Positions 1 through 45,096 of a stretch of DNA of 64,000 nucleotides are shown here, one piece after another; positions within the stretch are counted from its first letter, which is position 1, and each line of letters starts with the position of its first letter. The stretch lies in NCBI RefSeq assembly GCF_020921035.1, contig NC_063157.1:1426001-1490000 (forward strand). Direction: 5' to 3'. The DNA comes from Rhodamnia argentea. Taxonomy: Eukaryota > Streptophyta > Magnoliopsida > Myrtales > Myrtaceae. The position numbers were made by a program, and so were the translations under genes. The notes under the pieces are model-generated. The model saw only the letters and a program-made list of their open reading frames with translations. It ran no database searches and was not told where the DNA came from.

Positions 1-46
1 GCATTCTAGAGCATGCTATAACTGTACAAACTCCCACAATGCATAC

Positions 47-1565: not shown

Positions 1566-2660
1566 GCCAAACAACAAAAGCCAAGTCAGTACAATGAAAA
1601 ATCCGGGCGCAAATATAAACACAATAATCTGTGTTTCGATGTAAGTTTCTTTTCTTATTAAATCGAGAGTGGAAAAAAAATGATGGTCATAGATAACTCA
1701 CCATTTTCTTTTCTTGTGTAATGATCAAAATGGATATATTGTTAGAAGTGTGTTGCTGCAATCTTGGATGTAAACTAATGTGTGTTGGGACATATTTATA
1801 TCCAAGAGTTGCTTGTCGATGAAGGATGTTCCTGCAACTTTACTCCCTCTCTCTGTAGCCAAGAAAATTCTTCTGCATGCCGTTGTCATCCCATGCCTCC
1901 ACAGCCGTCCATTCAGCTGACGTGTCGAAATAGACGCTGTGATCATAGTCCAATGATTGTTAATCAAGGGAATGACGTGAACGCGTTTACTCCATTCTAC
2001 TCTCTCCTTAGCCAAGAAAGCTCCTCTCTCCTATGCTGTCATCCGCGACTCCTCAACCGTTGATCTCCAGTGTCGTGTTACAATACACGGTGGACATCAA
2101 AGTCCAAAGGTTGTACGGTCAAAACGAATTACGTCAACGCAGTCTATCATAAAGAAGATTCAGAGGGCGGTCTACAACTGGTCAAAGTCAAATTTGGACA
2201 GTGAAATTCTCATTGTGGATCAATATCATCAGCACCTTTGATTACATGAATCTCACTGTGATGTCTTCTCGATTAACGGCTCGGATGGATTTGATCTGCG
2301 TAATCTATAAACAACTCGGTATTGTCTCTCTAGGCTCTTGCTAGCCTGACCTTCACCCGTCAATTGGACGGTCAAATGCCAGCCACAAACTTGTGGCTGG
2401 GAAATGACACAAAAAAAACATGCGAAAAAAAATTAATGACAAGCATAACACAGTTAGTATCGTGTAACTGTCAAGCAAGAGTCCTCCTTTTACATATCAT
2501 CACGTGTTCAAATGAGAGATTAAAGCTAACATTTTGTAAGTGTAAGATTCAAATTAGGCCAAATACGTTTCTCATACATAGGCCAAGCGAGAAGACATCG
2601 AGTCACCCTTTGTAAATATTTTATGAACGAATCATCTAAGAATAGACAATGCATTGTCAT
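1566..2660. other. Duplicated flank of WD40 copy 1, no gene seen
   Basis: This stretch is upstream of WD40 copy 1 and has a close paralogue at 13084-13750 plus 16863-17290, interrupted there by a solo LTR. Open frames here (for example 1725-2063 on both strands) have no family resemblance. It contains a stem of two 10-base arms, CCAGCCACAA and TTGTGGCTGG, at about 2379-2400, also present at about 17020-17041. The undisturbed ATTGT at 2212-2216 marks the empty insertion site of the LTR. Confidence 0.6.
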
Positions 2661-2669
2661 ATGAACGAC

Positions 2670-2930
2670 GGGATACTTATCAAAATAGTCATAAATCTAT
2701 TGTAATTGTGTCAATTCAGTCCTCAACTTTTTTTTTTACCAATTGAATCTTAAACCTTTTGTATTTGCGCCAATTCAGTTCATTTGACCGGCTGATGCTA
2801 CGTGACAATGACATTGCCAATTTTTAATAATGTTTTATCTTTTTGAATCTTTTAATTAGTTTTTTTTCTTTTCTTCCTTCCTTTAGTTTCTGTTTATGGC
2901 CAGCGAGGACAACCTTGTGATGGCCTCGCC
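2670..2930. repeat. Left half of an inverted-repeat DNA element, truncated at the RLP pseudogene junction
   Basis: The sequence has the same signature as the left arms at 17327 and 57650: AT-rich tracts with 'tgtgtcaattcagtcc'-like and 'aaaccttttgtatttg' motifs, then a pyrimidine run and a GC-richer core. Here the core stops abruptly near 2930, where RLP coding sequence begins. The right arm is missing. Inference: a recombination or replacement event joined this element to a truncated RLP copy. Confidence 0.55.
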
Positions 2931-4073
2931 TGCAGCTGAGCTCTATTGGCATGCTTGATTTATCCAAGAACAAGTTGACCGGTGTTGTTCCATCATGTCT
3001 GAGTAATTTGAGCGAGACCCTTTCTGTCTTGAGTTTGCATGGCAATGATTTACATCGAAGATTTCCTCAATTGCAAAATGACATATGCACGTTGAGGATG
3101 ATAGATGTGAGTGATAACCAACTACAAGGGTCACTGCCAAGGGGATTAGCCAATTGTAGCGGTCTGGAGTTTCTCAATTTTGGAAAAAATCAGATCGTGA
3201 ACACCTTCCCTTCATGGATGGGCTAGCTTTCTAATTTGAAGGTGCTCATTTTGCGTTCCAATAGATTTCGTGGAGCCATAGGGGAACCTGAAGCTAGTGA
3301 CCAGTTTCCTAACCTACGAATTGTCGATCTATCCATGAACAACTTCTCGGGTAGCCTTCCATTTGAATACTTTGATATTTGGAGTGCCACGAAAGTCCAC
3401 GATGCATATGATGCAAATTACTGTGGGAATTATGTGCCCTCTTTCCTTCAATTCCCCAGGATGAGGGAAAGTACGACTACTCAATGACAACAATGACCAT
3501 GATTGATCTTTCGAGCAACAACTATATCGAGGAAATCCCGAATTCAGTTGGAAATTTAACTCTGCTTCATCTGCTCAATCCCTCCAACAGTGCTCTTACC
3601 GGCTCCATCCCTTCGTCCCTGGTGAATTTGACCGAACTAGAATCCCTTCACCTTTGAAGCAATAAGCTCTCTCCGGAACGATCCCTCCAGCATTAACATA
3701 ACTCGTTTTCCTTGCTTTCTTCAATTTGTCGGACGACCATCTTTCTGGGTCCATACCTCGGGCAAACCAGTTCGCTACATTCGACAATGACTCTTAAGGA
3801 GGGAACCTAGGACTGTGCGGAGTTCCTCTGACAAAGAAATGCTGAAATCCAGCTGAAACGCCCCCGGCACCACCATCTGGTGCGTTTGCCTGAGAGGACT
3901 CGGGGACATGGATTGAAGAACTTGGCTGGAAAATTGTCTTGCTGGGTTTGGGAAGTGGGCTGGTCATCAGTGTGGTTATGGGGCTGAACACGACTTCCAG
4001 GATCGAGCGTTGGTTCCTGAGGTTCTATAGAGGAAGGCAACAAAAACGGATGCACCAAATAAGGTTTGTGTGA
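2930..4073 (+). pseudogene. LRR receptor-like protein pseudogene (C-terminal third)
   Basis: The sequence closely parallels the 3' third of the intact RLP (about 8700-9890): the LDLSKNKLTGV, LSVLSLHGN, VSDNQLQGSLPR, FPSWMG and LRSNRFRGAIG repeats, the island-domain start EYFDIWSA, the final LRRs, GGNLGLCGVPLT and the transmembrane/basic tail ending RRR-like before a stop at 4071-4073. Breaks are plain: an in-frame TAG after FPSWMG near 3225, loss of part of the island domain near 3475, and further frameshifts near 3650-3700 and 3790-3850. There is no signal peptide, N-terminal cap or first LRRs. It cannot encode a working receptor. It is one of two RLP copies in the tandem array. Confidence 0.85.
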
Positions 4074-4509
4074 TTTACAATCTTTTATGAAAGTTCGATG
4101 ACTGGATTGCTCATTGCAAGGTGGGCATGGTGGCATACCTTTTCGATGTGTTCTGTGCTTCGCGATAGCATCCAAGTATCTACCGTCTAGATATGAAATT
4201 TCGAATCAAATGTGTCCAGTTTGACCGAGCAAACAATAAATGTGTTCGATAGTTCCTATGAAAATGATAGTTCTTATGAAATTAACTCGATGTAGTCGTT
4301 TGATAGCTATGAATACAATTTCTAGTGTTGGCTAAAAACAGTTCGCCTCATTTGTCCAATCTGGATCAAACAAGTTAACGAGCCATGTTGGAGGAATCGG
4401 CATGACAAGGCCCTCTTTGTTAATTTTTTTCAGTTTCCCTTTTAAATTCAAATCAAAAGCGCACTAGAAAATAGCGTTAGGTCACAACTGAACACTGTAC
4501 TCGAGGATC

Positions 4510-4690
4510 TAGATCAAAGAACTAGACTGGAAAATTGTGTCGATAGGTTGCGGATTTGGACTGGTCGTCGGAGTGGTTATGGGACACAATGCTGCCACTG
4601 AGAGTTCAACACTGATCCAGGAAGAAGCTTTTCAGGCGAAGGCGGAGGACCCGGAGGCACAGAGAAGGAGAAGGTTTGTATGAATTACAT
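4510..4690 (+). pseudogene. Orphan RLP C-terminal tail, copy A
   Basis: A short stretch translates to a transmembrane-and-basic-tail module typical of RLP C-termini: a 'KIVSIGCGFGLVVGVVMG'-like helix, then an Arg-rich tail ending before an intron-like GTTTGTATG. It differs from the tail of the adjacent RLPs, so it comes from a different RLP lineage or an alternative 3' exon. The paralogous relic lies at 10335-10510. No LRR coding sequence precedes it directly. Confidence 0.55.
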
Positions 4691-5720
4691 CATGTTAATA
4701 TTAGTGTTGCAATAGCATGGCATTCCATGTTAATGTTTTGACTGGTTATGAAGTTTGTTAAAAGGCTTTCATCTCAGTATTAAGCTAGCTGAATAGCCTC
4801 AAACATATGTCAAGTAACTCTTTTGAGTTGCTTCCAACGGTATTCGAAATCCCATCCGTGCTTTCGTTTGCGAGCAAAATGAATCTACTTTTCCAATAAT
4901 ATTAGCATGATGTCAACCACTTTCGTATCCCATTTGCTACAGATGTACTGCAGCCTGCGTTAGGAAATAGGACATAGATCGAGTCAAATCCCTGAAGGCT
5001 TAAAGTGTTAGATGTATCACCTGGTTGTGGACATGAGGCAGGAGCATTCTAAGTCGTTAGAGATTAGGAATTGTTTCAAGTCATGTTTACAAGTATCAAC
5101 TGGTTTGATATGCATCTTCCTTGTTTTATTTGTACAGAAGTCTTGAGACAGGCCTATCTCCATATATGAGTAATGTAGGCGCCTGGATCGTCGGTTTCAT
5201 GTTTCGAAGCAGCCATTATAATCCTCTTTTCTTTTTTTCGGGCAATTTTAGTAATCTTCGAGAGACATTTATTCACCAGGACACGCCACAGAAGGAAAGT
5301 ATGAGATCTTTGGGTTACACTGGAAAATCCTGCCACTGGCAGGACCCTGAGAGTATACACATACTTTCTTCCTTTGACAGAAGAACGATATGCACTTTCA
5401 TTTGAACTTGAAATTGAAAGTAACGGTTTTAGCGGTCAGGATCTGTTTTATTTGACATAGGATTTGGCTTAAGGCTCCACACTATCGGCAGACTATCTCG
5501 GCCTCGGCTATTCCCTTGCCGCAAGCAACTGCAACCATGCAGCGCGAAAGCCATGGAAACGTGAGACAATGGACTATGAAAGATTTTACCTTTGTACTGA
5601 AACCGCAGAGGTTATATGAATGTCCTTATAGTGGCAATGGAAAACCTCGGACCATCATTGTAGTTTACTAATGTCAAAGCATGGATATAACGAGGAAATG
5701 AGTCATTTAGAGCAGGTATG
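4691..5720. other. Intergenic DNA shared between the two RLP units
   Basis: This stretch is a diverged copy of about 10510-11280 (shared landmarks include the 'actggaaaatcctgccactggcagg' region near 5320 and 10910). I see no gene. The 94-residue frame at 5121-5405 has no recognisable family and is not convincingly conserved in the other copy. Confidence 0.5.
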
Positions 5721-5727
5721 AATGTTA

Positions 5728-6041
5728 CCGCCGCGATCCTTTCTGATATGCAATACCCCAAATCCTTCCATGATCGAATTTTAGTGCGTGTTTAAGCCTA
5801 TACGTGACATAATGTTGGTGTGATTCCCAAAACAACAAAGATTCCAGGGACATAAGCAATCTTATCCTATAGTAACTTATAGAAAATCTGGAAAAGGTGG
5901 TATTTCTCAAACAGCTGCCGACGCTATTCGCATCCCATATGCGAAGGGTCTCATCCTCTGAACCGGAGATTACCATAGGCACACCGTAACATTGTGCTGT
6001 GTCCCCTCGAATGTTTGTACACAGCTTCAACCTCATACCAA
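5728..6041 (-). pseudogene. Beta'-COP-like WD40 relic, copy 2
   Basis: Minus-strand translation shows two remnants matching the last two exons of copy 3: a blade with [17 protein letters not shown] (about 5905-5980) and YRLKHALKFDHGRIWGIAY followed by QKGSRR (about 5728-5810). Upstream of the first remnant the blade is damaged by small deletions (the HPELP part is lost). None of the first six exons can be found between here and the RLP start at 7073. It sits between the two RLP copies, as expected if the duplicated unit was RLP plus WD40 gene. Confidence 0.75.
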
Positions 6042-6904
6042 AATGAATATAATTCCAAGATAGAACAGAATGATAACTTGCACGCCCCAAACGCAGGTCA
6101 CACTCGCCCGAACGAGCCCCGACAAGATTCAGCCTTTTTTTATTTTTTCAAGGGTCAATTGTTTGATCGAAGGTAGCCTACAAGGCGTTCTCACATTTGA
6201 TACTTACTCATGAATGATGCCTATGTATATGATTTTTTGGCTTGGGATTGGATTAAGGAGAAAGTTTCTGTTAGAAAGGTCAACCTAAAAACTTAAATTG
6301 ATAGGTGGAGAGAGACCACATAGTTATAAAAAGTATATAGGACCCGTTATCAAGCAATGTGGGAAATCAACTTCAACACTCCATCTCACATGCAAGCCGG
6401 ATTATGAGCGGCACGTGGAAATTGACTAACGGGCGTTGGACGCACAATCGTAAAAGGGACAACACTGGCTCTGATACTATTTAGACTTAATCACTGCAAA
6501 TTCTTTAATAAAACGGAAACAAACAGAACTATTAAGATCTTTACCAAAAGGAAAAAAAACAGAACTATTAAGAGAAATAGCCATTGTTTGTCGCCATCTA
6601 CGGGAAAGTCGAAATGAAGCCGCGTTCAGAGGGAAGTCTATCCAGCAGTTTTGAGTCATAGCTCGAGATATTACTTTATTTGTCATTGACCAATCTGGCC
6701 AGCAACCCAAGTCGTCAAGTCAGATGAACTACTTAAGCATGATTTGTAATCTCTGTTTTACTATAATGCAAGTACTATTTGTATTTGGCTAAAGAAGAAA
6801 GTGGGCGGCCGATTATTTGTAATCTTATGTATTTAACTGTAATGAATAGACCACAAGCAGATTAATCAATGATCTGAATCGAAAATTTTAAGTCATAGAT
6901 CAGT
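6042..6904. other. Gene-free stretch upstream of the intact RLP
   Basis: No coding sequence is supported. The short frames at 5994-6176 and 6477-6710 resemble nothing. This is where the 5' exons of the WD40 relic would be expected, so the sequence was deleted or replaced here. Confidence 0.5.
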
Positions 6905-6965
6905 GTGAATGCATCCTGTTCAAGGGTGACGGCCTTGATCCACGCCCACGATGGGATAATCAAAT

Positions 6966-6972
6966 TATATAA
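6966..6972 (+). promoter_or_regulatory. Candidate TATA box of the intact RLP
   Basis: TATATAA lies 101 bases before the ATG at 7073, a normal distance for a plant promoter with a short leader. It falls inside the upstream extension of the frame (6905-7072), which argues that this extension is untranslated. Confidence 0.4.
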
Positions 6973-7072
6973 TGACGAGACAAATTTCTGTACTTGTCCA
7001 TCTTCACCTCCCCTACCCAGCAAAACCAAAACCAAAAACCCAAAGAAGAGCGTTGAACAATTTAATCATACC

Positions 7073-9898
7073 ATGAAAAGAACACCATTTGATCTCTTGG
7101 GGGTTTTCCTCGCCATAATTCCACTCCACTTTGCTTCCTCCGAGACATTGCCTTCAACCAAGTGCCGTGAGCAGGAGCGGTCTGCCTTGTTAGAGTTCAA
7201 GCAATCTTTCTTCCATCCAGAGCCGGAGAATTGTTCGTTGTGGGCTCGGTCCGACCCGTCGAAGCTAGAATCATGGAAGCCGGAAGATGGGGATTGCTGT
7301 AGCTGGAAAGGCGTGGAGTGTGATGTAGGGATGGGCTACGTGACCGGCCTCGACCTCAGCCAGAGTTGTCTCTCCGGTCCTATCGACTCGAATGCCAGCC
7401 TCTTCCGCCTCGCTCGCTTGCAAAGCCTCAACCTCGCCTGGAACTCCTTCAAAAGCTCACGAATACCTTCCGCCATAGGTGATCTTGTGGAGTTGACGAG
7501 CCTGAACCTCTCTATGTCCGGTTTCGGAGGTCAAATCCCATCTCAAGTCCTGAAGTTGACTCACTTGTCCACCCTCGATCTCTCTGAGAACTACGGGCTG
7601 GAGCTGAGGAATCCCAGCATGGAGACACTGGTTCAGAGGTTGACCAAATTGGAGCACCTCGATCTTAGCTCGGTGAATGTGTCAGCTCCGTTTCCTGATA
7701 CCGTCGCAAATTTATCTTCCTTAACATCACTCGCACTCCAAGACTGCGATTTGCGAGGGACATTCCCAACAACCATCTTCGAACTGCCGAGGCTGCAACT
7801 TCTTGATTTGGGTTATAATCCAGAGCTGTCTGGTCATTTGCCAGAGTTCCCCTTGCACAGTCCCATGAAGTCGTTGTTTCTTGGGGGGACCAATTGTTCG
7901 GGGAACATTCCATCTTCAATAGGTAACCTGACTCAACTTACCACTTTGGTTTTGCAAGGCAGTAAATTCTTAGGTGAAATCCCATCTTCCATTGGGAAGC
8001 TCGTCCAACTCTCCCTTTTGATTCTTAGCATGAATCAACTCTCTGGGGAAATTCCTGCTTCTTTGATCAACCTCACCAACCTCTTCTACTTAGACCTCAA
8101 TCACAATCAATTAACCGGTCAAATTCCAGCTGGAATCACTGGCCTCACCCGGTTGACTTATCTCGACCTATCCTTCAACAGATTAACTGGCCCAATTCCT
8201 CAAGACATCTCTAACCTCGAGAATCTTTTTGTCCTGAACTTGCAATCAAACAACCTAAACGGCACTTTGCGGTTGGATGTGGCACTCAAACTTCAAAATT
8301 TAAGTTTGTTGCTGCTCTCCTTCAACGAATTCTCGTCGATTATCGAACCCGACATGAGCGCTAGCCTTCCAAACCTGTTCGCTTTCGGCTTGGCTTCTAG
8401 CAACTTGAGTGAGCTCCCCATCTTCCTATCATACCAAAGTAGGTTGGGATGGTTGGACCTATCCCAAAATAGCATTTATGGGCCGACACCTTCATGGTTC
8501 TTAAACGTGAGTACGACGCAACTGGGATATCTGAATCTTTCCAGAAACTTTATTACAAGTTTCGCAGCTATTAAATGGCAAGGTCTCGTGACATTGGACC
8601 TAAGGTATAACGACATACAAGGATTACTTCCGCCTCCCCCGAGGACCATTGAAGTCTACCTTGTCTCAGATAACAAGCTATCCGGAGATATATTGCCGGA
8701 GATGTGCCAGCTAAGCTCTATTAAAATGCTTGATTTGTCCACGAACAAGTTGACCGGTGTTATTCCGCCATGTCTGAGCAATTTGAGCAAGACCCTTTCC
8801 GTCTTGAGTTTGCATGGCAATGAATTATATGGAAGATTTCCTCAATTGGAGAATGGGGTATGTGCATTGAAGATGATAGATGTGAGTGATAACCAACTAC
8901 AATGGTCACTGCCAAGGGAATTAGCCAACTGCAGCAGTCTGGAGTTTCTCAATTTCGGAAATAATCAGATCCTCGACACATTTCCCTCATGGATGGGCTC
9001 ACTCTCTAATTTGAAGGTGCTCATTTTGCGTTCCAATAAATTTCATGGAGCCATAGGGAAACCTGAAGCTCGTGACCAATTTCCTAACCTACGAATTGTT
9101 GATCTATCCATGAACAACTTCTCGGGTAGCCTTCCATCTGAATACTTTGATATCTGGAGTGCCATGAAAGTCCAGGATGCATATGATGCACACTACTACG
9201 GGAATTCTGCCTCCTACCTCCCAATTTATGATTTTGAAGAGGAGTATGACTACTCGATGACAATAACGAACAAAGGCATTGCAACGGAGTACCAAAGGAT
9301 ATTGTCGTACCTCACCGTGATTGATCTTTCGAGCAATAGCTTTATCGGGGAAATCCCGAATTCAGTTGGAAGTTTAACTGAACTTCATCTGCTCAATCTC
9401 TCCAACAATGCTCTCACCGGCTCCATTCCTTCGTCCCTGGCGAATTTGACCGAACTAGAATCTCTTGACCTTTCAAGCAATAAGCTCTCCGGAATGATCC
9501 CTCCAGCACTAACACAACTCATTTTCCTTGCTCTATTCAATGTGTCAGACAACCATCTTTCTGGGCCCATACCTCAAGCGAAACAGTTCTCTACATTCCA
9601 AAACGACTCTTATGGAGGGAACTTAGGACTGTGCGGAGTTCCTCTGACGAAGAAATGCGGAAATCCTGTTGAAGCGCCCCCTACACCACCATCTGGTGCA
9701 TTCACCGGAGACGACTCGGGGACGTGGTTTGAAGAAAACTGGGAAGTTGTCTTGATGGGTTTGGGAAGCGGGCTGGTCATCGGCGTGGTTTTGGGGCTGA
9801 ACACAACTTCCGGAATTGAGCGTTGGTTCCTGAGGTTGTATAGAGGAAGGCAACGAAGACGGATGCGTGATTTACAATCTGTTGCGACAGTTCAATGA
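7073..9898 (+). CDS. LRR receptor-like protein (Cf/RLP type, no kinase)
   Basis: A single-exon frame of 941 residues. It opens with a signal peptide (about residues 1-23, hydrophobic LLGVFLAIIPLHF), then the LRRNT cap with CREQERSALLEFKQSF and DCCSWKGVECD. A long array of 24-residue extracellular LRRs (LxxLxLxxNxLxGxIP) follows, with many N-glycosylation sites. An island domain around YDYSMTITNKG comes next, then the last LRRs, the GGNLGLCGVPL cap, an acidic juxtamembrane stretch, a Gly-rich membrane helix (about 887-908) and a short basic cytoplasmic tail. There is no kinase. RLPs of this type act at the plasma membrane in pathogen or damage perception, usually with SOBIR1 and BAK1-type partners (family knowledge). 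The frame extends upstream to 6905, but 7073 gives the signal peptide at the N-terminus. The ligand cannot be predicted. Confidence 0.93.
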   Translation: MKRTPFDLLGVFLAIIPLHFASSETLPSTKCREQERSALLEFKQSFFHPEPENCSLWARSDPSKLESWKPEDGDCCSWKGVECDVGMGYVTGLDLSQSCLSGPIDSNASLFRLARLQSLNLAWNSFKSSRIPSAIGDLVELTSLNLSMSGFGGQIPSQVLKLTHLSTLDLSENYGLELRNPSMETLVQRLTKLEHLDLSSVNVSAPFPDTVANLSSLTSLALQDCDLRGTFPTTIFELPRLQLLDLGYNPELSGHLPEFPLHSPMKSLFLGGTNCSGNIPSSIGNLTQLTTLVLQGSKFLGEIPSSIGKLVQLSLLILSMNQLSGEIPASLINLTNLFYLDLNHNQLTGQIPAGITGLTRLTYLDLSFNRLTGPIPQDISNLENLFVLNLQSNNLNGTLRLDVALKLQNLSLLLLSFNEFSSIIEPDMSASLPNLFAFGLASSNLSELPIFLSYQSRLGWLDLSQNSIYGPTPSWFLNVSTTQLGYLNLSRNFITSFAAIKWQGLVTLDLRYNDIQGLLPPPPRTIEVYLVSDNKLSGDILPEMCQLSSIKMLDLSTNKLTGVIPPCLSNLSKTLSVLSLHGNELYGRFPQLENGVCALKMIDVSDNQLQWSLPRELANCSSLEFLNFGNNQILDTFPSWMGSLSNLKVLILRSNKFHGAIGKPEARDQFPNLRIVDLSMNNFSGSLPSEYFDIWSAMKVQDAYDAHYYGNSASYLPIYDFEEEYDYSMTITNKGIATEYQRILSYLTVIDLSSNSFIGEIPNSVGSLTELHLLNLSNNALTGSIPSSLANLTELESLDLSSNKLSGMIPPALTQLIFLALFNVSDNHLSGPIPQAKQFSTFQNDSYGGNLGLCGVPLTKKCGNPVEAPPTPPSGAFTGDDSGTWFEENWEVVLMGLGSGLVIGVVLGLNTTSGIERWFLRLYRGRQRRRMRDLQSVATVQ

Positions 9899-10334
9899 CT
9901 GGATTGATCATTGCTAGGTGCACTTCGTGGCATACCTTTTCGATGTGTTCTGTGCTTCGCAATAGCATCCAACTATCTACCGTCTAGATATGAGATTTCT
10001 GATGAAGTGTCTCCAGTTTCATCAAGCAAACAATAAATGTGCGATAGATCCTATGACATCAACTCGATGGAGTCTTTTGATAGCTATGAATACAATTTCT
10101 ATTGTTGGCTAAAAACAGTTCTCAGCTGAGTTCATTTCTGATAAACCATTATGCAGAAGTTTCCTTCGCCTCATTCCTCCAATCTCAATCGAACAAGGTA
10201 ATGAGTCATCTTGGACTTGGAGGATTCAGCATGACAAGGCCCTGTTTGTTAATTTTTTCAGCTTCCCTTTTAAGTTCAAATCAAAAGCGCACGACTATAT
10301 CGTGTTTGGTCACAACTGAAAATAGTACTCAAGG
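9899..10334. other. 3' flank of the intact RLP
   Basis: Downstream sequence matches 4074-4500 behind the RLP pseudogene. I see no gene here. Confidence 0.5.
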
Positions 10335-10510
10335 ATCTGGATCAAAGAACTAGACCGGAAAAGTTGTGTCGATAGGTTGCGGAATTGGACCGGTCATCGG
10401 AGTGGTTATAGGACACGACCAACCACGAGAGTCCTACATTGGTTTGGGAAGAAGCTTTTTGGGCAGAGGCAGAGCACCCGGAGGCAAAAAGGAGAAGGAA
10501 GGTTTGTATG
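10335..10510 (+). pseudogene. Orphan RLP C-terminal tail, copy B
   Basis: This is the paralogue of 4510-4690. In shifting frames it reads VSIGCGIG..VIGVVIGHD and then VLHWFGKKLFGQRQ with an Arg/Lys-rich tail, ending at GTTTGTATG. Frameshifts separate the helix from the tail. It is the same foreign RLP tail module carried in both duplicated units. Confidence 0.55.
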
Positions 10511-11306
10511 AATTTACATCATGCTGTGAAGGTTAGTAATACACCTCAAATCCCTGATAGCTTAAAGTATTGGAAGTATCACCTGATTGTTCACATGAGT
10601 TATGCAGGAGCATTCGAAGTCATTAGAGATTACAAGTATCGACTTGTTTGATATGTATCGTCCTTGTTTTATCTGTGGAGAGGTCTTGAAACATGCCTTG
10701 ACCCATACATGACTAATGTGGACTCCTGGATCTTCGGTTTCATGTTCCGAAGCTGCCGTTATTTTCCTTTCTTCGCTTTTTCTTATTTCGGGGAGATGTT
10801 GAAAATCTTCTACGGACATTTTTTCCAATAGGAGCATCATACACGACAGATCGTTAATGAACTTTCACCAGTTCACACCACAAAAGGAAAGCACGAGGTC
10901 TTTGGGTTACACTGGAAAATCCTGCCACTGGCAGGACCCAGAGAGTATACACATAAACTAGTACAAAGCAACACTTTCTTCCTTTGACAGAAGAACGATG
11001 TGCACTCTTATTTGAACTTCAAATTGAAAGTAACAGTTCAACATAGAATTTGGCTTAAGGCTCCACACAATCAGCAGACTATCTCGACCATGGCTATTCC
11101 CTCGTCGCAAGCAACAGCAGTCCTGCAAAGCAAAAGCCATGAAAACGTGACACAATGTACATGGAGGATTTTATCTTTGTACTGAAACTGCAGAGCCTAC
11201 ATGAATGTCCTTATAGTGGCGATGGAAAACCTCGGACCGTCATAATAGCTTATTGTCAAAGCATGGATATAGCGAGGAAATGAAGCATTTAGAGCAGGTA
11301 TGAATA
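10511..11306. other. Intergenic DNA between the RLP tail and WD40 copy 3
   Basis: This is a diverged repeat of about 4691-5720. I see no gene; short frames such as 10562-10840 have no family match. No exon equivalent to the beta'-COP continuation (VVIGYDEG type) is found downstream of copy 3. Confidence 0.5.
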
Positions 11307-13083
11307 TTACCGGCGCGATCCTTTCTGATATGCAATATCCCAAATCCTTCCATGACCGAATTTCAGTGAGTGCTTAAGCCTGTACGTGACATAATGTCGG
11401 AGTCATTCACAAAAAAACAAAAACTTCAGGGACGTAAACAGTCATATCCTATGGAACTCTTGGAAAATCTGGAAAACATAGAGGTGGTATTTTAATTCAG
11501 ACTGCTGTAATTGAAGCTGCGTTCGAGAGCATGCTATAACCGTACAAACTCCCACAATGCATACCCGAAGCTATTCGCATCCCAAATGCGAAGAGTCTCA
11601 TCCTCTGAACCAGTGATTACTATAGGCAGCTCAGGATGCGCACACACAGCGGTAACATTGTGCTCATGTCCCTCAAGTGTATGTACACAGCTTCCGCCTT
11701 TATCGTCCCAAACCTGTACTTGTTATTTAACAAATCATATATCATTCGATCTCTTCCTAATAATGCACCGATATAGTAAATTCAGAACGATAAAGTTTAC
11801 CAACCTTAGCAGTGTAATCATCAGAACCGCTCAGTAAATAGTGCTTATCATCCCTAGAGAAGTAATCAACAAAGTTCAGCCCTTTCTCATGCGCATCCAA
11901 AGTGAACTTAGCTGCAGAGGAGTGAACATTCCAAATCTGCAGCAAATGGGAATCGTATCAAGAGTATAAACAGCATGCTGGGAAATTGAAATATGTTTTC
12001 TATGAAGAGCGAGACCGACAAAGAGAGTACCTTTATAGCTCCATCGAGTGATGCACTCGCAAAAGCATTAGGATCTTGAGGATCAAACGCAACTCGCATC
12101 ACATAATGTGAATGCCCTTCAAATGTCTGAGTACACTCCCAGTCCTTTTCCCAGTCCCAGAGCTTTATAACCGCATCGTCCGACGCTGATAGCACATAGG
12201 GAAGTGTAGGGTGGACACCCACGCATCTGATGTAATCTTTATGCGCTTGGAATTCTTTGATCTTCTCCATCGTGCCATAGTCGTACACACGAATAAACGC
12301 GTCGTCCGATCCAACAATTACCCAGCGCTTGCTCGGGATAAATTTGGCTGACCTCACTGCAAATATGATTGGTATTACAGATTAGGATGGAAAATTATCT
12401 GGTCTGGCATCATGAATTGTCAAAGAAATTGGAGCACGTCTCAATTTAATCTGGCGTGTTCTGATATTTACCTGGTGACTCTGCCACCTTGAATGTTTTC
12501 TCAGTAGTCTGAAATACCACCAGACAATGTTGATGTCAATGAGGAACACAAGATGAAGATAATTAATTCTTGTCAACAAAACATCAAATAATGTTGGAGA
12601 TTGCGAAAACAGAGAAGGCTGTTATATACCTGGGATTGGTAGTTCCAAATGTAGACAGTTCCTGAATGCAAGCTTACAAGAATCCTGCGTGGCAACAAGT
12701 AACATTCTGGTAAGGCACTCATAATTAACATCCTTAAGCTTGGTTTTGTGAACATAGACAGATGGCTAAAGCTTCCTTTGTAACCATACTAGAGCAATGA
12801 AAGATATCCACAAAAGAAGCACAACCGAATTCTCATTACCATGGTTCTGTCGGATGGAACTCGACAGATTTAGCTCGCTCCGACCGTTGAACGATCTCAT
12901 TCTGGTGCAGAAGTGACATTAGTTAGTTTCTTGGACAGTGAAGTGCCCATGATATCAATTACTACGGTCACGTAATGTAATAAAGCTAAACAAACCGGCA
13001 AGTGCAGAAAGGGAAATGAAAAGTAGAAGAACTGAGGATCAGGAATTGTGTACCTCAAACTTGAACGCGGTAGACTGATACAT
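11307..13083 (-). CDS. Beta'-COP-like WD40-only protein, copy 3 (complete)
   Basis: Eight minus-strand exons join in frame: 13054-13083, 12840-12901, 12630-12684, 12472-12508, 12031-12356, 11805-11936, 11565-11713 and 11307-11379. They give about 287 residues. The protein is the first WD40 propeller of coatomer subunit beta' almost blade for blade and ends at QKGSRR followed by TAA, exactly where the full gene would continue into the next exon. Full beta'-COP (about 900 residues) binds cargo di-lysine motifs through this propeller and joins COPI through its later domains, which are missing here. If made, the product could bind cargo tails without assembling a coat; this is inference. Conserved splice sites and an open frame argue against a dead relic, but expression is unknown. 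A donor-like GT after CGCCG at 11310 leaves room for an unseen 3' exon. Confidence 0.7.
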
Positions 13084-13745
13084 GCCAAACAACAGAAGCC
13101 AAATCAGTACAATGAAAAATCCGGGCGCAAATATAAACACAACCCGAGATTATTAAGCGTGTTTTGATGTAAGTTTCTTTTTTTAGTAAATTGAGAAAAA
13201 AAAAAAAACGATGGTCATAGATAACTCACCATTTTCTTTTCTTGTGTAATGATCAAAATGGATATATTGTTAGAAGTGTGTTGCTGCAATCTTGGATGTA
13301 AACTAATGTGTGTTGGGACATATTTATATCCGAGAGTTGGTTGTAGATGAAGGATGTTCCTGCAACTTTACTCCCTCTCTCTCTCTAGCCAAGAAAATTC
13401 TTCTGCATGCTGTTGTCATCCCATGCCTCCACAGCCGTCCATTCAGCTGACGTGTCGAAATAGACGCTGTGATCATAGTCCAATGATTGTTAATCAAGGG
13501 AATTCCGTGAACGCGTTTTACTCCATTCAACTCTCTCCCTAGCCAAGAAAAGCTCCTCTCTCCTATGCTGTCATCCGCGACTGCTCAACCGTTGATCTCC
13601 ACTCTCGTGTTACAATAAACGGTGGAGATTGAAAGTCCAAAGGTTGTTCGGTCAAAATGAATTACGTCAACTTAGTCTATCATAGAGAAGATTCAGAGGG
13701 CGGTCTCTAACTGGTCAAAGTCAAATTTTGGACAGTGAAATACTC
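13084..13745. other. Upstream flank of WD40 copy 3
   Basis: This matches 1566-2211 upstream of WD40 copy 1. I see no gene. It is interrupted at 13746-13750 by the solo LTR and resumes at 16863. Confidence 0.6.
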
Positions 13746-16700
13746 ATTGTTGTTGACACCTAAATTTTCGTTTTTCTTAAATCAATCATATTTCATAAAA
13801 ATGAGAATTAACTTTAGTTCTCGTCAAAAATAATTTTCATGCATAACATATTTAATGTTTCTCAATTTTATATTCACGCATTTATATTAGCATTTATCCG
13901 CATCGGCGGTGCGAGATTGACTTGATTTGACAAGTAGGGGACCAAATCCATCATGAGATTTTCACCAGATATAGGGAGCATTTGCATTAATCCTGGCTTT
14001 ATTGGATCAGCGGCGATCGATTGAATTTGATTATATGTTCTTAATTTAATTAAGTGGACGTAGCCCGCATGAATTGGAAATGTCGTTTAACCCATTGCTT
14101 TTCTCTCAAGGCCGAAGGTTATATTGCATGATTTGTCAAATCTCCATTGAATCGTACACAAATAACATATATTCGGCCAAGAAAAGGTAAGACGAGACAA
14201 ATATATTCTTAGATGAGACAAAAAGGAAATATGGGCTGAATAAATATTGGGTTATTGGCGCATAAAGCAACAAAAGATTTATACCTTCGCTGACTTTTTT
14301 GTGAGGGCAAGGAATTGACTATGTTTTGAGCAATTCATGCAGAAAAATTGAGGCCTATACACGTGAATTAATGGCTAGAGGAGGCAAAACAGGAAACCAA
14401 GAGGATGAGGAGATATGTTAGAATATTTGCACAATCACGTGAGAAAGGAAAGAAAATATTTGAAGCCTTCGAAAGGGAGTTAGTGAGCCAACCTATATAA
14501 GATAATGTTCACACAAGGGTTTTGGAGGGGGGTCGGCAAAAAAAAATTCTGCTCATACACAGAAATACTCGTGAGAAATAAAGGGAAAGAGAAGGAAGTG
14601 TTCTGAAAAATTTCAAGCCACGCCACTTTGCTTCACCTTCGTTCAACGAACCCAATTGGAAATTGCAGTATACCCGTAGCTCTCCTGGACGCACAACAGC
14701 CCTCGTTTGTGCTAGTGCTCGCTGGCAATTTGCCCACCGCTGCTCAGTAAACCGACGCTACCTGGTCAACCGTCGAAGCGCCACCAATCCGTCCGCTGTC
14801 CAGCTCGGAGCAGCACGCGACCAGCCCTCTGTTTAGCCGCTGTTGCAGTCTATTTCAGCCTCGTTTTATTTTGAAATCGACATCTAACCCATCTGCTACT
14901 TTGTGCTAGACTTCCCTGGTAGTTTGGGGCTTGCTTTCGTTGCAAAATCAGTCAAAAGGTGCAGTTTTTTGGGCGATTTCACAGCTTGGACGTGTGTTGA
15001 TTTTCGGAGCAACACGAGCTCGATTTGCTCGCTGTTCAACCGATCTGCTGCTGTTCGGTGCCGACGAAGGAGTGAATTGGCTGCTGCGAATTCATTCCAT
15101 CAAGTCCCCTTAGGTGCGCAACGTTCCTTAGCGGATCCATGCGAAAGTTCGAGCTTGATATTCGAGTTTCGTGCAAAGTTTGATCAACAAAGCCGATATT
15201 TGTTTCAAGGTAAAAATTTTCTATGTTGAATATTTGCTTGCTCAATGGGTTAACTTGCACACTTCACTGAGTGTTCTTGCGTATCTTGATATATCATGGG
15301 ATGATTGCCTATACTGGATCGTTTATTCTGGGGATAAAAGGAAAAACTTTTGTTTTAGATTCAATCTTGCTTAATTGCTTATAGGAGATTAATTTGAGTT
15401 TTGGTTCAAGAACCTCGGCACGTTCCCTCATATTCTAGCAAATTTTGAAGTTTGATAATGGAACTTTACTTGTCTCAAATTGATGATTGAATTCTCATGA
15501 AATTGTCAATCTTAATTAACTTGTGAATTAGCTTACATGTTCTAAAAGTTAACTGGACGTTCGTGAGCTTGAAAGTCAAGAATGTTTTTTTATCAAGTTG
15601 GATAGATTGGGAAGAATCAGAATTTTGGATTAATTCTTGGTACATATGCCCCCTTTTGGCCGAACTATACATACGGGTGAGTCTTGTTGTGGTAATTTGC
15701 TATTGCCCTGAGTTGCATTGATCCATTACTCATTTGATCTCTATGTTATGTATGGGAATTCAAATTTAATTGAGTAGTATCGAATCTCGACGGATAGCTC
15801 TTTTAATTCATATAATTATCATTAATAGTTAAATTGGTCGGGATATTTATCTGATATGCGTCTTATCTTATCTCTTGCAATTTTATCTGAATATATTCGA
15901 CTTGATGTGAGATTTGATAATTATCTATTTTGCTAGAATTATAAAAAAAAATTAAGTTTTCCAATCTCAAAGATAATTTTCTCAAATTAAAATTGACTAA
16001 AATTTTTGATGAGGAAAGGTGGGCTCTCACTTCACAATTTCAGCCACCCCTCTTTGAATTTTCAAAAAATTCAAGCTCAATGGACTTATTTTTATTTTTG
16101 TCGTGTTGTTTGTTTTTTTTTATTGTTATAAATTTTGCACATCTTTAAACAAACATGCCCATAATATATGCTCCCCTACGTGCCTAGACCCGTCGGAAAA
16201 ATAAATCACACGCCTTAGCCACGATCTTGTGGAATGGGATGGTGATTTAGTATAGAAATTCGTATTACGCCCTTTGACAAAAGGGATGTTGTTTTTCAAT
16301 ACGTATATTCGCATACTGGCTCGAATCCTCGGGAATGTAGCGAATAAAATCTCGCTCTAGCCCGGATCTTTGGGAATGAGAGGATTTTTCGGAAAAATCA
16401 GAAATTAAAGGTATATTATGGGCATTTTTGTTTATTTTTGTTCAAATTTTTTATTGCTTTTGAATGTTTCTTTTATTGCTTAAAATACCAAAAAAATCAT
16501 CCTATGGGCACTTAATATATGGTCTTCATACCACATTTTTTTTAAAATCAAAATCGCTCAATTCACATCGATCAATCGGAAAGGCATTTTCATGAAATTG
16601 GTACCGAAAGGGCGTTGATTTTTCAATTAGCGTAACCAAGTCCCCGGACTCATTCTCTCTGGTTCGTAGAGATAAAATAGTTCTCTCGCTATTTTATATA

Positions 16701-17324: not shown

Positions 17325-18150
17325 TTATCAAAACAATCCTCAATCTATTGTAATTGTGTCAATTTAATCTTAAAAAAATTTTTCCAATCGAGTCATAAAC
17401 CTTTTGTATTTGTGTCAATTCGGTTCATTTGGCCGATCGACGTTGATGTGACGCTACCGACGCCGACGTGGCCAATTTTTAATAATAACTAATTTTTTTG
17501 AAGCTAGTAACTAATTTTTTTTATTTTTCTTTTCTTTTCGTTCCTTTCTTTAGTTTTTGTTTGTGGCTAGCAAGGGTTACGGCCCTTGCCCGGCCTCTCC
17601 CAAATCTAGGAGAGGCGCGCAAGGGCTGCCTCGTTATAACCTTGCCGACGGAGGGCGAAGGCGGCCTCGCCCGCAGCCGGCGAGGCCATGGCCGCCTTTG
17701 TCCACAGCCGTCGAGTCGTGAGCGAGGCAATTGCGCCTCTCGATGGGTCGTAAGGAGCGGAAATCAGCGAGGCCGCCACTCTCGCACTCGACAGCCATGA
17801 ACAAAGGCGGCCATGGCCTCGCCAGCCACGGGCGAGGCCGCCTTCGCTCGCGGCCTTGCGTTCCTCGCCAAGTGGCCAAGGAGTTCCGGCAATCCTCGTC
17901 GGCCACAAACAAAAACAAAAGGAAGGAAGAAAAAAAACTAAAGAACATAAAAATAAATATTAATTAAAATCTTATTGATATATTAGTAAAAACTAGTCAT
18001 GTCAGCGTCCGCCGGTCAAATGGACTAAATTAGTATAAATACAAAAAATTTAAGACTCAATTGGCCCAAAAAAAAAAGTTTATAACTAAATTGGCACAAT
18101 TGCAATATCAACGACAAAGTTATGTTAAATTGAGCATCCAAAGAACTCTA
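17325..18150. repeat. Inverted-repeat DNA element with GC-rich core (MITE-like)
   Basis: The left arm (about 17327-17445) and right arm (about 18015-18140) are inverted copies built from motifs such as TTGTAATTGTGTCAATT and AAACCTTTTGTATTTG, with the complementary ACAATTGCAATA and AAATACAAAAAATTTAAG on the right. Between them lies a GC-rich core (about 17565-17900) with its own self-complementary blocks (GGCCATGGCC, GCGAGGCCGCC). The overlapping 100-residue frames here on both strands reflect the GC-rich palindromic core, not genes. The ends are blurred, so class and target duplication are not assigned. Confidence 0.6.
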
Positions 18151-21100: not shown

Positions 21101-22242
21101 CTTCAAATTGATGGGAACTTTTTGACTAGAGATTAGTAGTATTCCCATCTGAAATTGTCATGACTTTAGTGGAGCATACATGAGCTAAGAGAATCCCAAG
21201 TGTTTGGCCTGATTTTGCAGTTTATTAGCTTGTAATTTGTGAAACTTAGAGAATGGAATGATTTGAGAGAAATTCGGTAAGGACCATATTTTGTTGTGTA
21301 ACTTTTTGGTAGCTTACCAACAATTCCAAGATAGTTCAATTTTTTTATAGCTTGTAAATCACTCACTCTGTGTTGAGGTACTTATCAATGTTTAGATTGT
21401 CAAAACTACATGCCAAGTTTTCTATTGGTCACTGGCTTTTATTTACCTTGGTTAGCCACATTTGAACTTTACTAGCTCTTTGTTTAGAAACCACCAACAT
21501 AAACTAGGGTGACTTACCGGCTTTTCTCCAATTATGTTACTAGATGGTGTCGATTTAACAAATCTTAGTCGAGTTATTTATCGACGTTTTATTAGTTCAT
21601 GTCTGCTTGCCAACTCTTTTATTATTTGCAACTATTTATTTTCATTTCTTAGCACCGGTTTTGATTTTGAGCTTGCGGCAACCATGGCCTGCTCAACCTT
21701 TGAGATCGCTGCCATGGCTGCTCGAGCTCGAAGCGTCATTGTGGCATGGCAGCAAGCGGGGTCATTTGTGTCGGCGGAGCTTGGAATTTGTTTGTTTTTT
21801 TTAATTTCTCTATTTTTCCAATGATATTATGAATTTCTTGTAAACCCCTTTCGATTTTTCTAAAAAATTTGTACTCAGTTAATCTACGTCAGCTTTTTCA
21901 TCGCCATCTCATCTTTCCCGATTGCCAACTCAGCTTTCAAACAGTCCATGTCAACAATAATCAATCAAAGAAGCAAGAGATTAATCGCCGGACAAAAGAT
22001 GTAAATTCTTAATAAGTACCGGGACAATTTTGAATAAAAGATTGATTTTGAATTTCGTGCTAAACTAAAGAGGGATCACTAAGCACCTGCTGAGCATGCT
22101 GAAGGTTAGTAAACTTTCGATAGACTTAGCATATCTTGAGCTGACTCCGCCTACTTTATTGCGAGGGATTTGAAGAGAATCAGGACACAGAACCATAGCT
22201 TTTCCTTTTTTTTTTTTTGGGGGGGGGGTTTGGGGGGAGAAA
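18151..22242. other. Long gene-poor stretch
   Basis: No gene is supported. Open frames at 18368-18601(-), 19979-20283(+) and 20495-20992(-, 165 aa) have no family I recognise, and their flanks lack convincing exons. The 20495-20992 frame contains many Cys and Trp residues and could be an old transposon or gene remnant. Short GAAA repeats occur near 19885. Confidence 0.4.
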
Positions 22243-23130
22243 GTTTGAGGTTGAAATCAAGAGATTGACTAATGCCAACGGCAAAAAGAAGACCACTCCA
22301 TTAACATCAGTTAAATGCAAAAGCATAACTTGGTTAACACCCAACGCAATTTGAAATAATTGAACAGCGTGTATCAACTTGCCAAGCTAGAACGGATCTT
22401 ATGTCATTAGCACGTGGTGTTCGCGGAAAATTCTGCTTATTATCATGGTACAGTCGAAGAATGTCACCTTCGACATTACCTACGTTTCTAGGTGGCCATT
22501 GATGTTCCTGAATGATTCTGCTTCATACAAATTTTTCCGTGATAAACCATGTTATAAGTCGTCCAGTGCTACTTAATTACCCGGGCTTATCTCGGTTCTG
22601 TATTCATGCATCTTCCTCAATCTATGAAATTGAATTCTTTGAGTAAATATTATCTCAACATTAGGTGTAATATGACTTCAATTTGAGGTTGAGGTTGAAA
22701 TCAAGAGATTGACTAATGCCAACGGCAAAAAGAAGACCACTCCATTAACATCAGTTAAATGCAAAAGCATAACTTGGTTAACACCCAACGCAATTTGAAA
22801 TAATTGAACAGCGTGTATCAACTTGCCAAGCTAGAACGGATCTTATGTCATTAGCACGTGGTGTTCGCGGAAAATTCTGCTTATTATCATGGTACAGTCG
22901 AAGAATGTCACCTTCGACATTACCTACGTTTCTAGGTGGCCATTGATGTTCCTGAATGATTCTGCTTCATACAAATTTTTCCGTGATAAACCATGTTATA
23001 AGTCGTCCCGTGCTACTTAATTACCCGGGCTTATCTCGGTTCTGTATTCATGCATCTTCCTCAATCTATGAAATTGAATTCTTTGAGTAAATATTATCTC
23101 AACATTAGGTGTAATATGACTTCAATTTGG
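22243..23130. repeat. 444-bp near-perfect tandem duplication
   Basis: Two head-to-tail units (22243-22686 and 22687-23130) match base for base as far as I could read, except C for A at about 23005 versus 22565. A long T tract then G tract (22201-22236) precedes the first unit. Neither unit encodes a protein. The low divergence means a recent duplication, or an assembly duplicate. Confidence 0.85.
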
Positions 23131-42676: not shown

Positions 42677-43094
42677 ATGGGGGTGCATGAAATCCATCCG
42701 TAAACAGAATTTCTGTTTCAAACCTATTTCTGGAACAGAAATCCGTTTGGTAACGCAATTCTATTTTTCTATTTCTGAAACAAAAAATTGTTTCGTAAAT
42801 AGATTTGAAGAAAAAATGAGAAACAAAAATTTTCTACTTTTTCGAGAAACAGAAATAGAAATCTCATTTTTTCTCAAATACTCGTCGCCGCCAACCGGTC
42901 GCCGCCCGCTGCAGCCGATCGCCGCCGCCGGCCGCCGCCGTTAGCCGGCCGACACATTTTTCAGAAGTAGAAATTTTATATCGTTATCAAACACTTTTTT
43001 TTGCTCAAAAACTCATTCAGAAACAGAAATAGAAAAAACTATTTCTAGCCGTAAATCTATTTCCGAAACAGAATGGTTATCATTCACGCCCATG
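42677..43094. mobile_element. MITE with terminal inverted repeats
   Basis: The element 42680-43091 has imperfect inverted ends (GGGGTGCATGAAATCCAT on the left; GGGCGTGAATGATAACCAT read inward from the right) and is flanked by ATG on both sides (42677-42679 and 43092-43094). Internal sub-terminal repeats of AACAGAAAT type and a GGC/GCC-rich core (42885-42955) fill it. No transposase frame is present. A 3-bp duplication suits a PIF/Harbinger-type MITE, but the target here is ATG rather than TTA. Confidence 0.6.
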
Positions 43095-43309
43095 TGACTG
43101 GAAAAGACAGAAAACACAAATGTATAAGGGAAAATGTCAAAAAAAGGCCCCAAGTCCTCTCTATTTCTCAAAAAAGGGCCTGAAGTGGAATCTATTTCTA
43201 ATAAGGGACTAATCGGGGATATTTTGGTCTTTTGCTTTTTAAAATTTATTTTTTTTGTTTTTTTGTTTTCCTATTCCTTTACTTTTTCCTCTCCCCTCTC
43301 TCACTCATC

Positions 43310-43800
43310 GCCGGCCTCAGCTTCTCTTCAATGGTGGGCATCAGCCTGCTCTCTCCTCTGGACGTCCCTGAACCGCACCAAATCAAGAATCCACCCAACT
43401 TACCAAAGACCCGGCAAACGCTTGACAAGAAGCAAGAATCACCCATTTTTGCCCATTTCACCCGAAAAAGCGGCCCATACTCGCCGGAAAAATCAAGAAC
43501 CGGGAAAACTGCCATGTTCTGTACTTGGTGAGGAACTCCGAAATGGGGTGAGAGTAGAGGATCAGAGACTTATCGCCCGGGCGATACAAGCGACGGTCGG
43601 CTAGAGGTCCTCATAGGTGATTACAGGCATGGTCTTCTTGAAGGACTCCCAATCAGTCTGGCCGTCGAGGCCATGGCGATGCACGTACAAGACGTGAGCA
43701 TTGTGGCAGAGGATCTCGATGAGGACCCGCCTCTGGACCTCGTCGACAGCTGTGATGTCCTCGATGAACTGGAGGCCATCTTATTCTTGTCATGGAGGTT
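43310..43800 (-). pseudogene. Captured GH3 acyl-acid-amido synthetase fragment
   Basis: On the minus strand, from about 43800 downward, frames read DYNLHDKNKM, then LQFIEDITAVDEVQRR, NAHVLYVHRHGLDGQTDWES, FKKTMPVITYEDL, a stop in place of Gln, then GDKSLILYSHPISEFLT. After about 125 bp of intron-like or inserted sequence comes SGTSRGESRLMPTIEEKL. These are collinear with the N-terminal region of GH3 proteins, which conjugate auxin or jasmonate to amino acids. At least two frameshifts and one stop break it. The retained non-coding interval suggests capture from genomic DNA, not from mRNA. Confidence 0.8.
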
Positions 43801-44042
43801 GTAATCGGCTGGGAGTTGAGGAGGTAGGAGATGGAGACGAAGGAGGCGTAGAAGGGGTGGATCGAAAGGTGACATAAGAGCGGTAGGAGTTGCGGAGGCC
43901 ATTGCAGGCGAAATCCTCGGTGAAGTTGTCGTTGGTGGTGTCGTTGCAGGCGAGCTGCTTGTTGACGTAGATTTGCTGAGAGAGGAGGAGGCGAGGTTGG
44001 TGGTGGAGGAGGAAGGCGAAGAAGGAGGAGGGGCGAGCGTAG
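43800..44042 (-). pseudogene. Captured LysM receptor kinase (LYK4/LYK5-like) ectodomain fragment
   Basis: On the minus strand the frame reads a signal-peptide-like SSFFAFLL, then SQQIYVNKQLACNDTTNDNF, EDFACNGLRNSYRSYVTFRS and, after a one-base frameshift, PFYASFVSISYLLNSQP. This is the N-terminal pattern of LYK4/5-type LysM receptor kinases (QQ-YVN-x-LxC, a CNG motif, SYxTFRS, ISYLLNS), which take part in chitin perception. The kinase and most LysM repeats are absent. It abuts the GH3 fragment directly near 43800. Confidence 0.72.
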
Positions 44043-44656
44043 AGAGAGAGAGAGAGGAGAAAAAGGACAGGAAAATGGGAAAAAATTAGAAAATGTCAAA
44101 AGACCAAAATATCCCTGATTAGGCCCTTTTTTGAAACAAATAGGGCACTTCGGGCCCTTATTTGAAACAGATTTCACTTCAAGCCCTTTTTTGAGAAATA
44201 GAGAGGACTTGGGGCCCTTTTTCGAAATTTTCCCGATGTATAATGCTCAAAATAAGCGATGAGTACGAATCGACGATGGAAATTAGCCATTTGCTAGCTC
44301 CAGTTGTTTTACGAAAAATATAACTTTTGGGGATAATGTTTTTTCAAGAAGACGTTTTCTAGAAAAATAACGACATTTTTCGGCATTTAATTGAAACACG
44401 AAAACAAACTAAAAAATATGCTCCGATCATTTGGTTTGAAAAATCCGATTCGATTTTCCTTTGTGCAATCATTTTAACAATTTTTTTTATTTTATCTTTT
44501 TCATTTTTTAAAAATCAAATTTTTAATTGTTTGTTACGGGTTTTTTTTTTTCTATTCACGTTTTACGTCGGTCACCAGCAATGGTGACGATCGGCAACCA
44601 GCCGCAAGCAAGCTCGATCCTCGCCTTTCTTGAGCCCACGGCTCGCCTGTGGCGAC

Positions 44657-45096
44657 TTAGGGTGCGCATGGTAACACTTCATATTAACTTCTCAACTTCC
44701 GACCAGAAATTGATTTCTCAACTTCTCCTTCAAAGCGTAAGATGATTTTTCTACTTTTACTTCGGATTAACTTCTGAACAGAAAAATTCGTTTAATTATG
44801 GTTGAAAATTTCTACTTCTAGCCCGGCGGCGGGCGGCGATGGGCGGTCGTTGGAGGTCAATGTGATCGAAGAAGTGATTCTAAGGTGGAGAAGTAAAAAA
44901 AAATTACTTCTCAAAGTTGGCAAAAAATCTTGTCGGAAGTTAAAAATTCTATCAGAAGTTGAAAATCCTACCATAAGTCAATTTTTTTATCAAACGGATT
45001 TCTACTTCGGCAAGGTTTTTACCAAACGGATTTTCCTGCCGGATTGACTTCTCGCAGAGAAATCCAGATGTAGAAGTGATTTCATGCGCACCCTTA
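44657..45096. mobile_element. Tourist/PIF-Harbinger-like MITE with TTA target duplication
   Basis: The element 44660-45093 has near-identical inverted ends (GGGTGCGCATGGTAACACTTC-type left; GGGTGCGCATGAAATCACTTC-type right) and TTA on both sides (44657-44659 and 45094-45096). Internal motifs AACTTCT and AGAAGTT repeat in both orientations around a small GC-rich core near 44822-44860. There is no transposase. Ends and target size fit Tourist-like MITEs. Confidence 0.72.

Follow-up and report, generated by a model that had tools for sequence, protein, structure and literature searches.

How did pieces of two unrelated plant genes come to lie side by side, in one orientation, between a single pair of long inverted repeats? 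This question is raised by a short element in the genome of Rhodamnia argentea (assembly GCF_020921035.1, contig NC_063157.1, positions 1,426,001 to 1,490,000 of the forward strand). These 64,000 nucleotides are called the window, and all positions are counted from its first letter. With a probability of about 0.9 the element is a non-autonomous plant Mutator-like element (MULE), in which the genomic 5' parts of a LysM receptor-kinase gene and of a GH3.5/3.6-like gene were captured and joined, and which was then inserted and decayed. The ends and the duplication flanking them, two protein matches that are collinear and share one orientation, an intron-sized gap and the breaks were observed directly (Table 1). 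Statements on published elements refer to excerpts of the papers cited by their PMC numbers.

The element proper covers 43128-44234 (1,107 bp). Its terminal inverted repeats (TIRs) are ~109 bp (left) and ~142 bp (right) long, with inner limits, about 43236 and 44093, set by eye from a gapped alignment. In this alignment (43128-43240 vs 44090-44234) 103 of 113 ungapped columns were identical and the gaps measured 31 bp and 1 bp; the arms 43128-43207 and 44155-44234 were 91% complementary over 80 nt. A local alignment of the two halves, which extends past the TIRs into the CT-rich interior, scored 188, compared to a maximum of 32 among 200 mononucleotide shuffles. The unequal TIRs differ by one subrepeat of ~31 bp. 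Hence, the ends consist of tandem units of varying number, comparable to foldback-type Mutator elements. The TIR pattern gave 0 matches in viral contigs, as expected of a plant element.

Both ends are flanked by a target site duplication (TSD) with identity at 8 of 9 positions. When two 9-mers at a time were taken at random from the flanks close by (200,000 draws), such 8/9 matching occurred with a frequency of 7.35e-4. On the plus strand of the window, AATGTATAA and GATGTATAA were found once each; for the 8-mer common to both copies, ATGTATAA, four occurrences were counted in the window. An earlier reading of the letters without database searches (the sequence-only reading) had proposed a Mutator-like element with long inverted ends and an 8-of-9 duplication, and the alignment and the flanks bear this out. 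The interval it gave, 43119..44243, contains the element, but takes in both TSD copies.

For MULEs, a TSD of 7-11 bp beside both ends with at most two mismatches in 9-11 bp is described, TIRs usually measure 100-500 bp, and a TIR family is defined by at least five elements in the genome (PMC4858842). The present element shows a TSD of 9 bp with one mismatch and TIRs of ~109 and 142 bp. No transposase family was detected in it by Pfam (E <=10) with 15 pieces of both strands, seven from the minus strand and eight further ones (six of them plus-strand), frames <50 aa not all being included. With its long TIRs, its TSD of 9 bp and the lack of a transposase match, the element thus fits the structural criteria for a non-autonomous MULE given in PMC4858842. 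Since its interior derives from cellular genes, GH3 and a LysM receptor, it is by architecture a Pack-MULE whose cargo stems from two genes. In general, the anatomy lends good support to the capture reading.

For the GH3 piece, predicted to be the amino-terminal coding region of an acyl-amido synthetase, the assignment by sequence comparison is strong, with GH3.6/GH3.5 as closest relatives. The single open frame 43780-43604 (minus strand) matched the Pfam family GH3 (PF03321) with E 3.3e-12. In the PDB its best match was the plant enzyme GH3.6 (E 1.2e-17), and 10 of 10 matches at E <=1 belonged to the GH3 family. Read through across its breaks, the piece matched GH3.6 (7vka) with E 1.3e-36, followed by GH3.5, GH3-1, GH3.8, GH3.15, JAR1 and GH3.12; 10 of the 11 PDB matches (E <=10) were GH3-family proteins and the eleventh was unrelated (E 0.52). 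The GH3 N-terminus named in the sequence-only reading is recovered in this way, but a remnant intron and an exon 2 piece had been missed. In a frame-tolerant alignment to GH3.6 the first stretch, 43806-43515, was identical in 60 of 99 columns. The alignment resumed at 43371-43318 (14/18 identical) with a score of 69, the maximum among 500 shuffles being 38. With Pfam GH3 the exon 2 piece reached 14.2 bits, and 11.1 bits in a longer piece, both under the cut-off of 23.6. The interruption between the two stretches opens with GT (43524-43523) and closes with GG (43374-43373). Because of the GT start, and because FLTSSGTS of GH3.6 retains its number of codons, one of them split in phase 2, once 43373-43524 is excised, the gap is read as a remnant intron. 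Thus, the GH3 piece would have been taken from genomic DNA, not from mRNA. Two or three introns each are reported for the GH3 genes of apple (PMC3653799).

The assignment of the other piece to a LysM receptor, likewise a prediction, is good but weaker than that to GH3. The receptor alignment at 43981-43812 showed identity in 29 of 58 columns. A read-through in two frames, ending at 43806, had three PDB matches at E <=10, all of them LysM receptor kinases (best 2.4e-5). In Pfam it matched LysM1_NFP_LYK with E 2.8e-4 and 22.1 bits, under the curated 36. The matches carried only the names LysM-domain receptor-like kinase, LysM type receptor kinase, or Pfam NFP/LYK LysM1; a placement in the LYK4/5 subclade, as in the sequence-only reading, is tentative. 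Ahead of the mature receptor start a hydrophobic stretch was seen in a three-frame reading of the minus strand, and it may represent the remains of a signal peptide. On the minus strand, the stretch 44140-43981 contains no ATG. Hence, of the receptor signal peptide in the sequence-only reading truncated remains are possible at most, and a working one has to be discarded.

Both pieces were also located when the whole 64 kb was searched on either strand by a frame-tolerant scan, which allows frameshifts without a hand-made join. The top PDB matches of the two read-throughs served as targets. For the LysM-receptor target the best place in the window was 43812 on the minus strand (score 112, next 47), and for GH3.6 it was 43515 on the same strand (score 269, next 50). 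On five block-shuffled minus strands the maxima ranged from 41 to 57 and from 46 to 56, respectively. In 500 dinucleotide shuffles covering 43250-44110, the score never exceeded 53 (LysM) or 58 (GH3), both true scores lying above all of them. Together with the Pfam and PDB matches, these results agree with the earlier claim of a LysM receptor piece and a GH3 piece in the same orientation.

Table 1 Features of the element and its flanks (positions in the window)
Feature	Position	Strand	Basis or remark
Left TSD copy, 9 bp, AATGTATAA	43119..43127		8/9 identity with right copy
Left TIR, two ~31-bp subrepeats and one partial	43128..43236	+	inner limit by eye
GH3 exon 2 fragment, SGTSRGESRLMPTIEEKL, 14/18 residues identical to GH3.6	43318..43372	-	frame-tolerant alignment and Pfam
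Remnant GH3 intron (putative), 152 bp, phase 2; GT start, GG end (AG expected)	43373..43524	-	inferred from sequence
GH3 exon 1 fragment, beginning at ~residue 15 of the GH3.6 chain; two frameshifts, one stop	43525..43806	-	Pfam, PDB, frame-tolerant alignment
Fusion junction of 5 nt outside both parental matches	43807..43811	-	alignment ends
NFP/LYK-type LysM receptor (predicted), start of mature ectodomain; one frameshift near 43860-43830	43812..43981	-	Pfam, PDB, frame-tolerant alignment
Pyrimidine-rich stretch, possible truncated signal peptide and receptor-gene leader, without ATG	43982..44092	-	assignment inferred
Right TIR, one ~31-bp subrepeat more than left TIR	44093..44234	-	inner limit by eye
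Right TSD copy, GATGTATAA	44235..44243		8/9 identity with left copy

The receptor and GH3 pieces are collinear on the minus strand and 5 nt apart, and the fusion, previously placed at about 43800, could be located at this junction. At the DNA level, the 5' portions of two unrelated genes would have been copied from the genome into the interior, that of the LysM receptor-kinase gene being joined straight to the GH3 portion from exon 1 to exon 2. Both donors would have been copied by gap repair or template switching, two models named in PMC8277862, where their validity for plant Pack-MULEs is left open. Insertion at the present site would have followed, probably through transposase made elsewhere and thus by movement in trans, and decay would have set in after insertion. 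As a variant, the fusion may predate the present copy, having formed in the host genome or inside an older Pack-MULE, so that the joined piece was taken in one step or the element is a transposed copy. The tight 5-nt junction and the common orientation would suit such an origin, and one third of rice Pack-MULEs are reported as multicopy (PMC8277862); an extra earlier event is needed, except where another copy of the element served as the source. We regard the variant as rather unlikely, though direct counter-evidence to it was not found.

The cargo shows signs of decay. The receptor piece contains one frameshift. In the GH3 piece there are two frameshifts, one stop (TAG in frame, 43603-43601) and a splice acceptor that no longer reads AG, in agreement with the earlier statement that both pieces are broken. 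No intact coding frame from either parent is present in the element. Exon shuffling yielding a working gene, as suggested in the sequence-only reading, is therefore unsupported, both pieces being broken and no ATG standing ahead of the receptor part. There was no sign that the fused piece works, and it is probably without function. A 197-aa open frame (43653-44246, minus strand) spans the right TIR and the cargo. It was rejected as a gene, as it contains the second-frame part of the receptor, is elsewhere out of frame for both parents and had no Pfam match. Weak Pfam matches below the cut-offs, to RSRP (E 0.1), COX3 (0.14), a coronavirus nucleocapsid model (0.6) and CCDC71L (8.2), were taken as chance.

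The decay also bears on a possible action of the element through RNA. Small or antisense RNA from it might repress the parental LysM or GH3 genes, and small RNAs of Pack-MULEs are mentioned in PMC8277862; since decay reduces the odds of exact 21-24-nt matches to the parents, this speculation is improbable. More improbable still, and equally speculative, is that the chimera is transcribed and that its small RNAs act to dampen a LysM immune receptor together with an auxin-conjugating GH3 gene. If this were true, one transposon copy would link immunity and auxin control. The significance of the element would rise only if its RNA acted on the parent genes.

Several points weigh against an origin by capture of two gene pieces in a MULE. 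The parent loci of the cargo, which in a Pack-MULE should lie elsewhere in the genome without flanking MULE TIRs, were not seen. Among the matches listed for the 64-kb window no second copy of the element or of its ends was present; the best other match measured 26 bp and all were short. Thus, family status and mobility are putative. The TSD copies differ at one position, the TIRs diverge by 9%, and the acceptor of the remnant intron reads GG instead of AG. For the receptor piece, single frames were marginal in the PDB, with E 0.099 for one of them (best of five matches) and E 0.96 for another (best of four, the rest being unrelated at 1.1), and were without any Pfam match. Hence, the LysM assignment hangs on the frame join. 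This join was picked by eye ahead of the Pfam and PDB read-through searches, and the LysM target of the frame-tolerant scan is the best hit of the hand-joined read-through. An alternative without capture by a transposon, in which two separate insertions or local rearrangements took place between inverted repeats of unrelated origin, would accord with the single copy of the ends in a search confined to 64 kb, but is hardly credible, as one matched pair of TIRs directly adjoins the 8/9 TSD and encloses both pieces.

Jiang et al. reportedly dealt with Pack-MULEs of rice in 2004. With rice Pack-MULEs (PMC13317346, PMC8277862, PMC4858842) the element has in common the structure of a non-autonomous MULE with long TIRs, a TSD near 9 bp and gene fragments inside, and also a high-GC cargo; the cargo in rice comes sometimes from several loci. 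In contrast to the rice elements, its TIRs are made of 31-bp subrepeats. A tendency to high GC is described for Pack-MULEs and multicopy Pack-TIRs (PMC8277862), and the GC-rich cargo of the element (G+C 0.549 vs 0.412 for the window) agrees with it. Rice Pack-MULEs and Arabidopsis Pack-CACTA are named as earlier cases of multi-locus cargo in PMC8903248, where further cases were added; in the rice set of that study, Pack-Mariners alone had a significant proportion (19%) of elements with cargo from several loci. Cargo from several loci is shared with the Pack-TYPE elements of PMC8903248, whereas the ends and the TSD of the present element point to Mutator. Tm1, a Foldback/Mutator element of root-knot nematodes (PMC3169594), resembles it in variable numbers of tandem subrepeats, unequal ends and a common 9-bp TSD, but the subrepeat of Tm1 measures ~14 bp compared to 31 bp here, and terminal motifs and host differ.

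In the titles and abstract openings of the Pack-MULE literature touching Eucalyptus, LysM or GH3, no such LysM-GH3 fusion is described. The process itself is known, the element is one further case of it, and multi-locus cargo has already been published. It would represent a clean plant case of gene-fragment capture and fusion, the remnant intron pointing to genomic DNA as the source of the GH3 piece.

Among the seven window frames scanned, the nearest one with a Pfam match encodes a PPR protein on the minus strand. Its first ATG, at 41807, follows the element at a distance of ~1.3 kb when this strand is read 5' to 3'. At 44657-45096 an element resembling a miniature inverted-repeat transposable element (MITE) was observed, with inverted ends GGGTGCGCATG and TTA on either side, which we take to be PIF/Harbinger-like. 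A possible second MITE-like element (42677-43094) has imperfect inverted ends near GGGGTGCATGA with ATG on either side and stops 24 bp short of the TSD of the Pack-MULE; a part of it matches the first one in inverted orientation with 72% over 75 bp.

Furthermore, duplicated blocks were found at 1-5905 and 8708-13750. Identity was 95% for 1-2216 vs 11519-13750, which includes a WD40 protein frame, 80% for 2933-4694 vs 8708-10523 and 75% for 4984-5905 vs 10546-11492; an LRR protein frame (6899-9892) overlaps one of the block copies. A 444-bp tandem duplication at 22242-23129 is 99.5% identical and hence either recent or an assembly artefact. Nested inverted repeats at 17384-18064, with arms 17655-17716/17786-17847 at 89% and 17384-17452/17996-18064 at 74%, are perhaps another foldback element or MITE.
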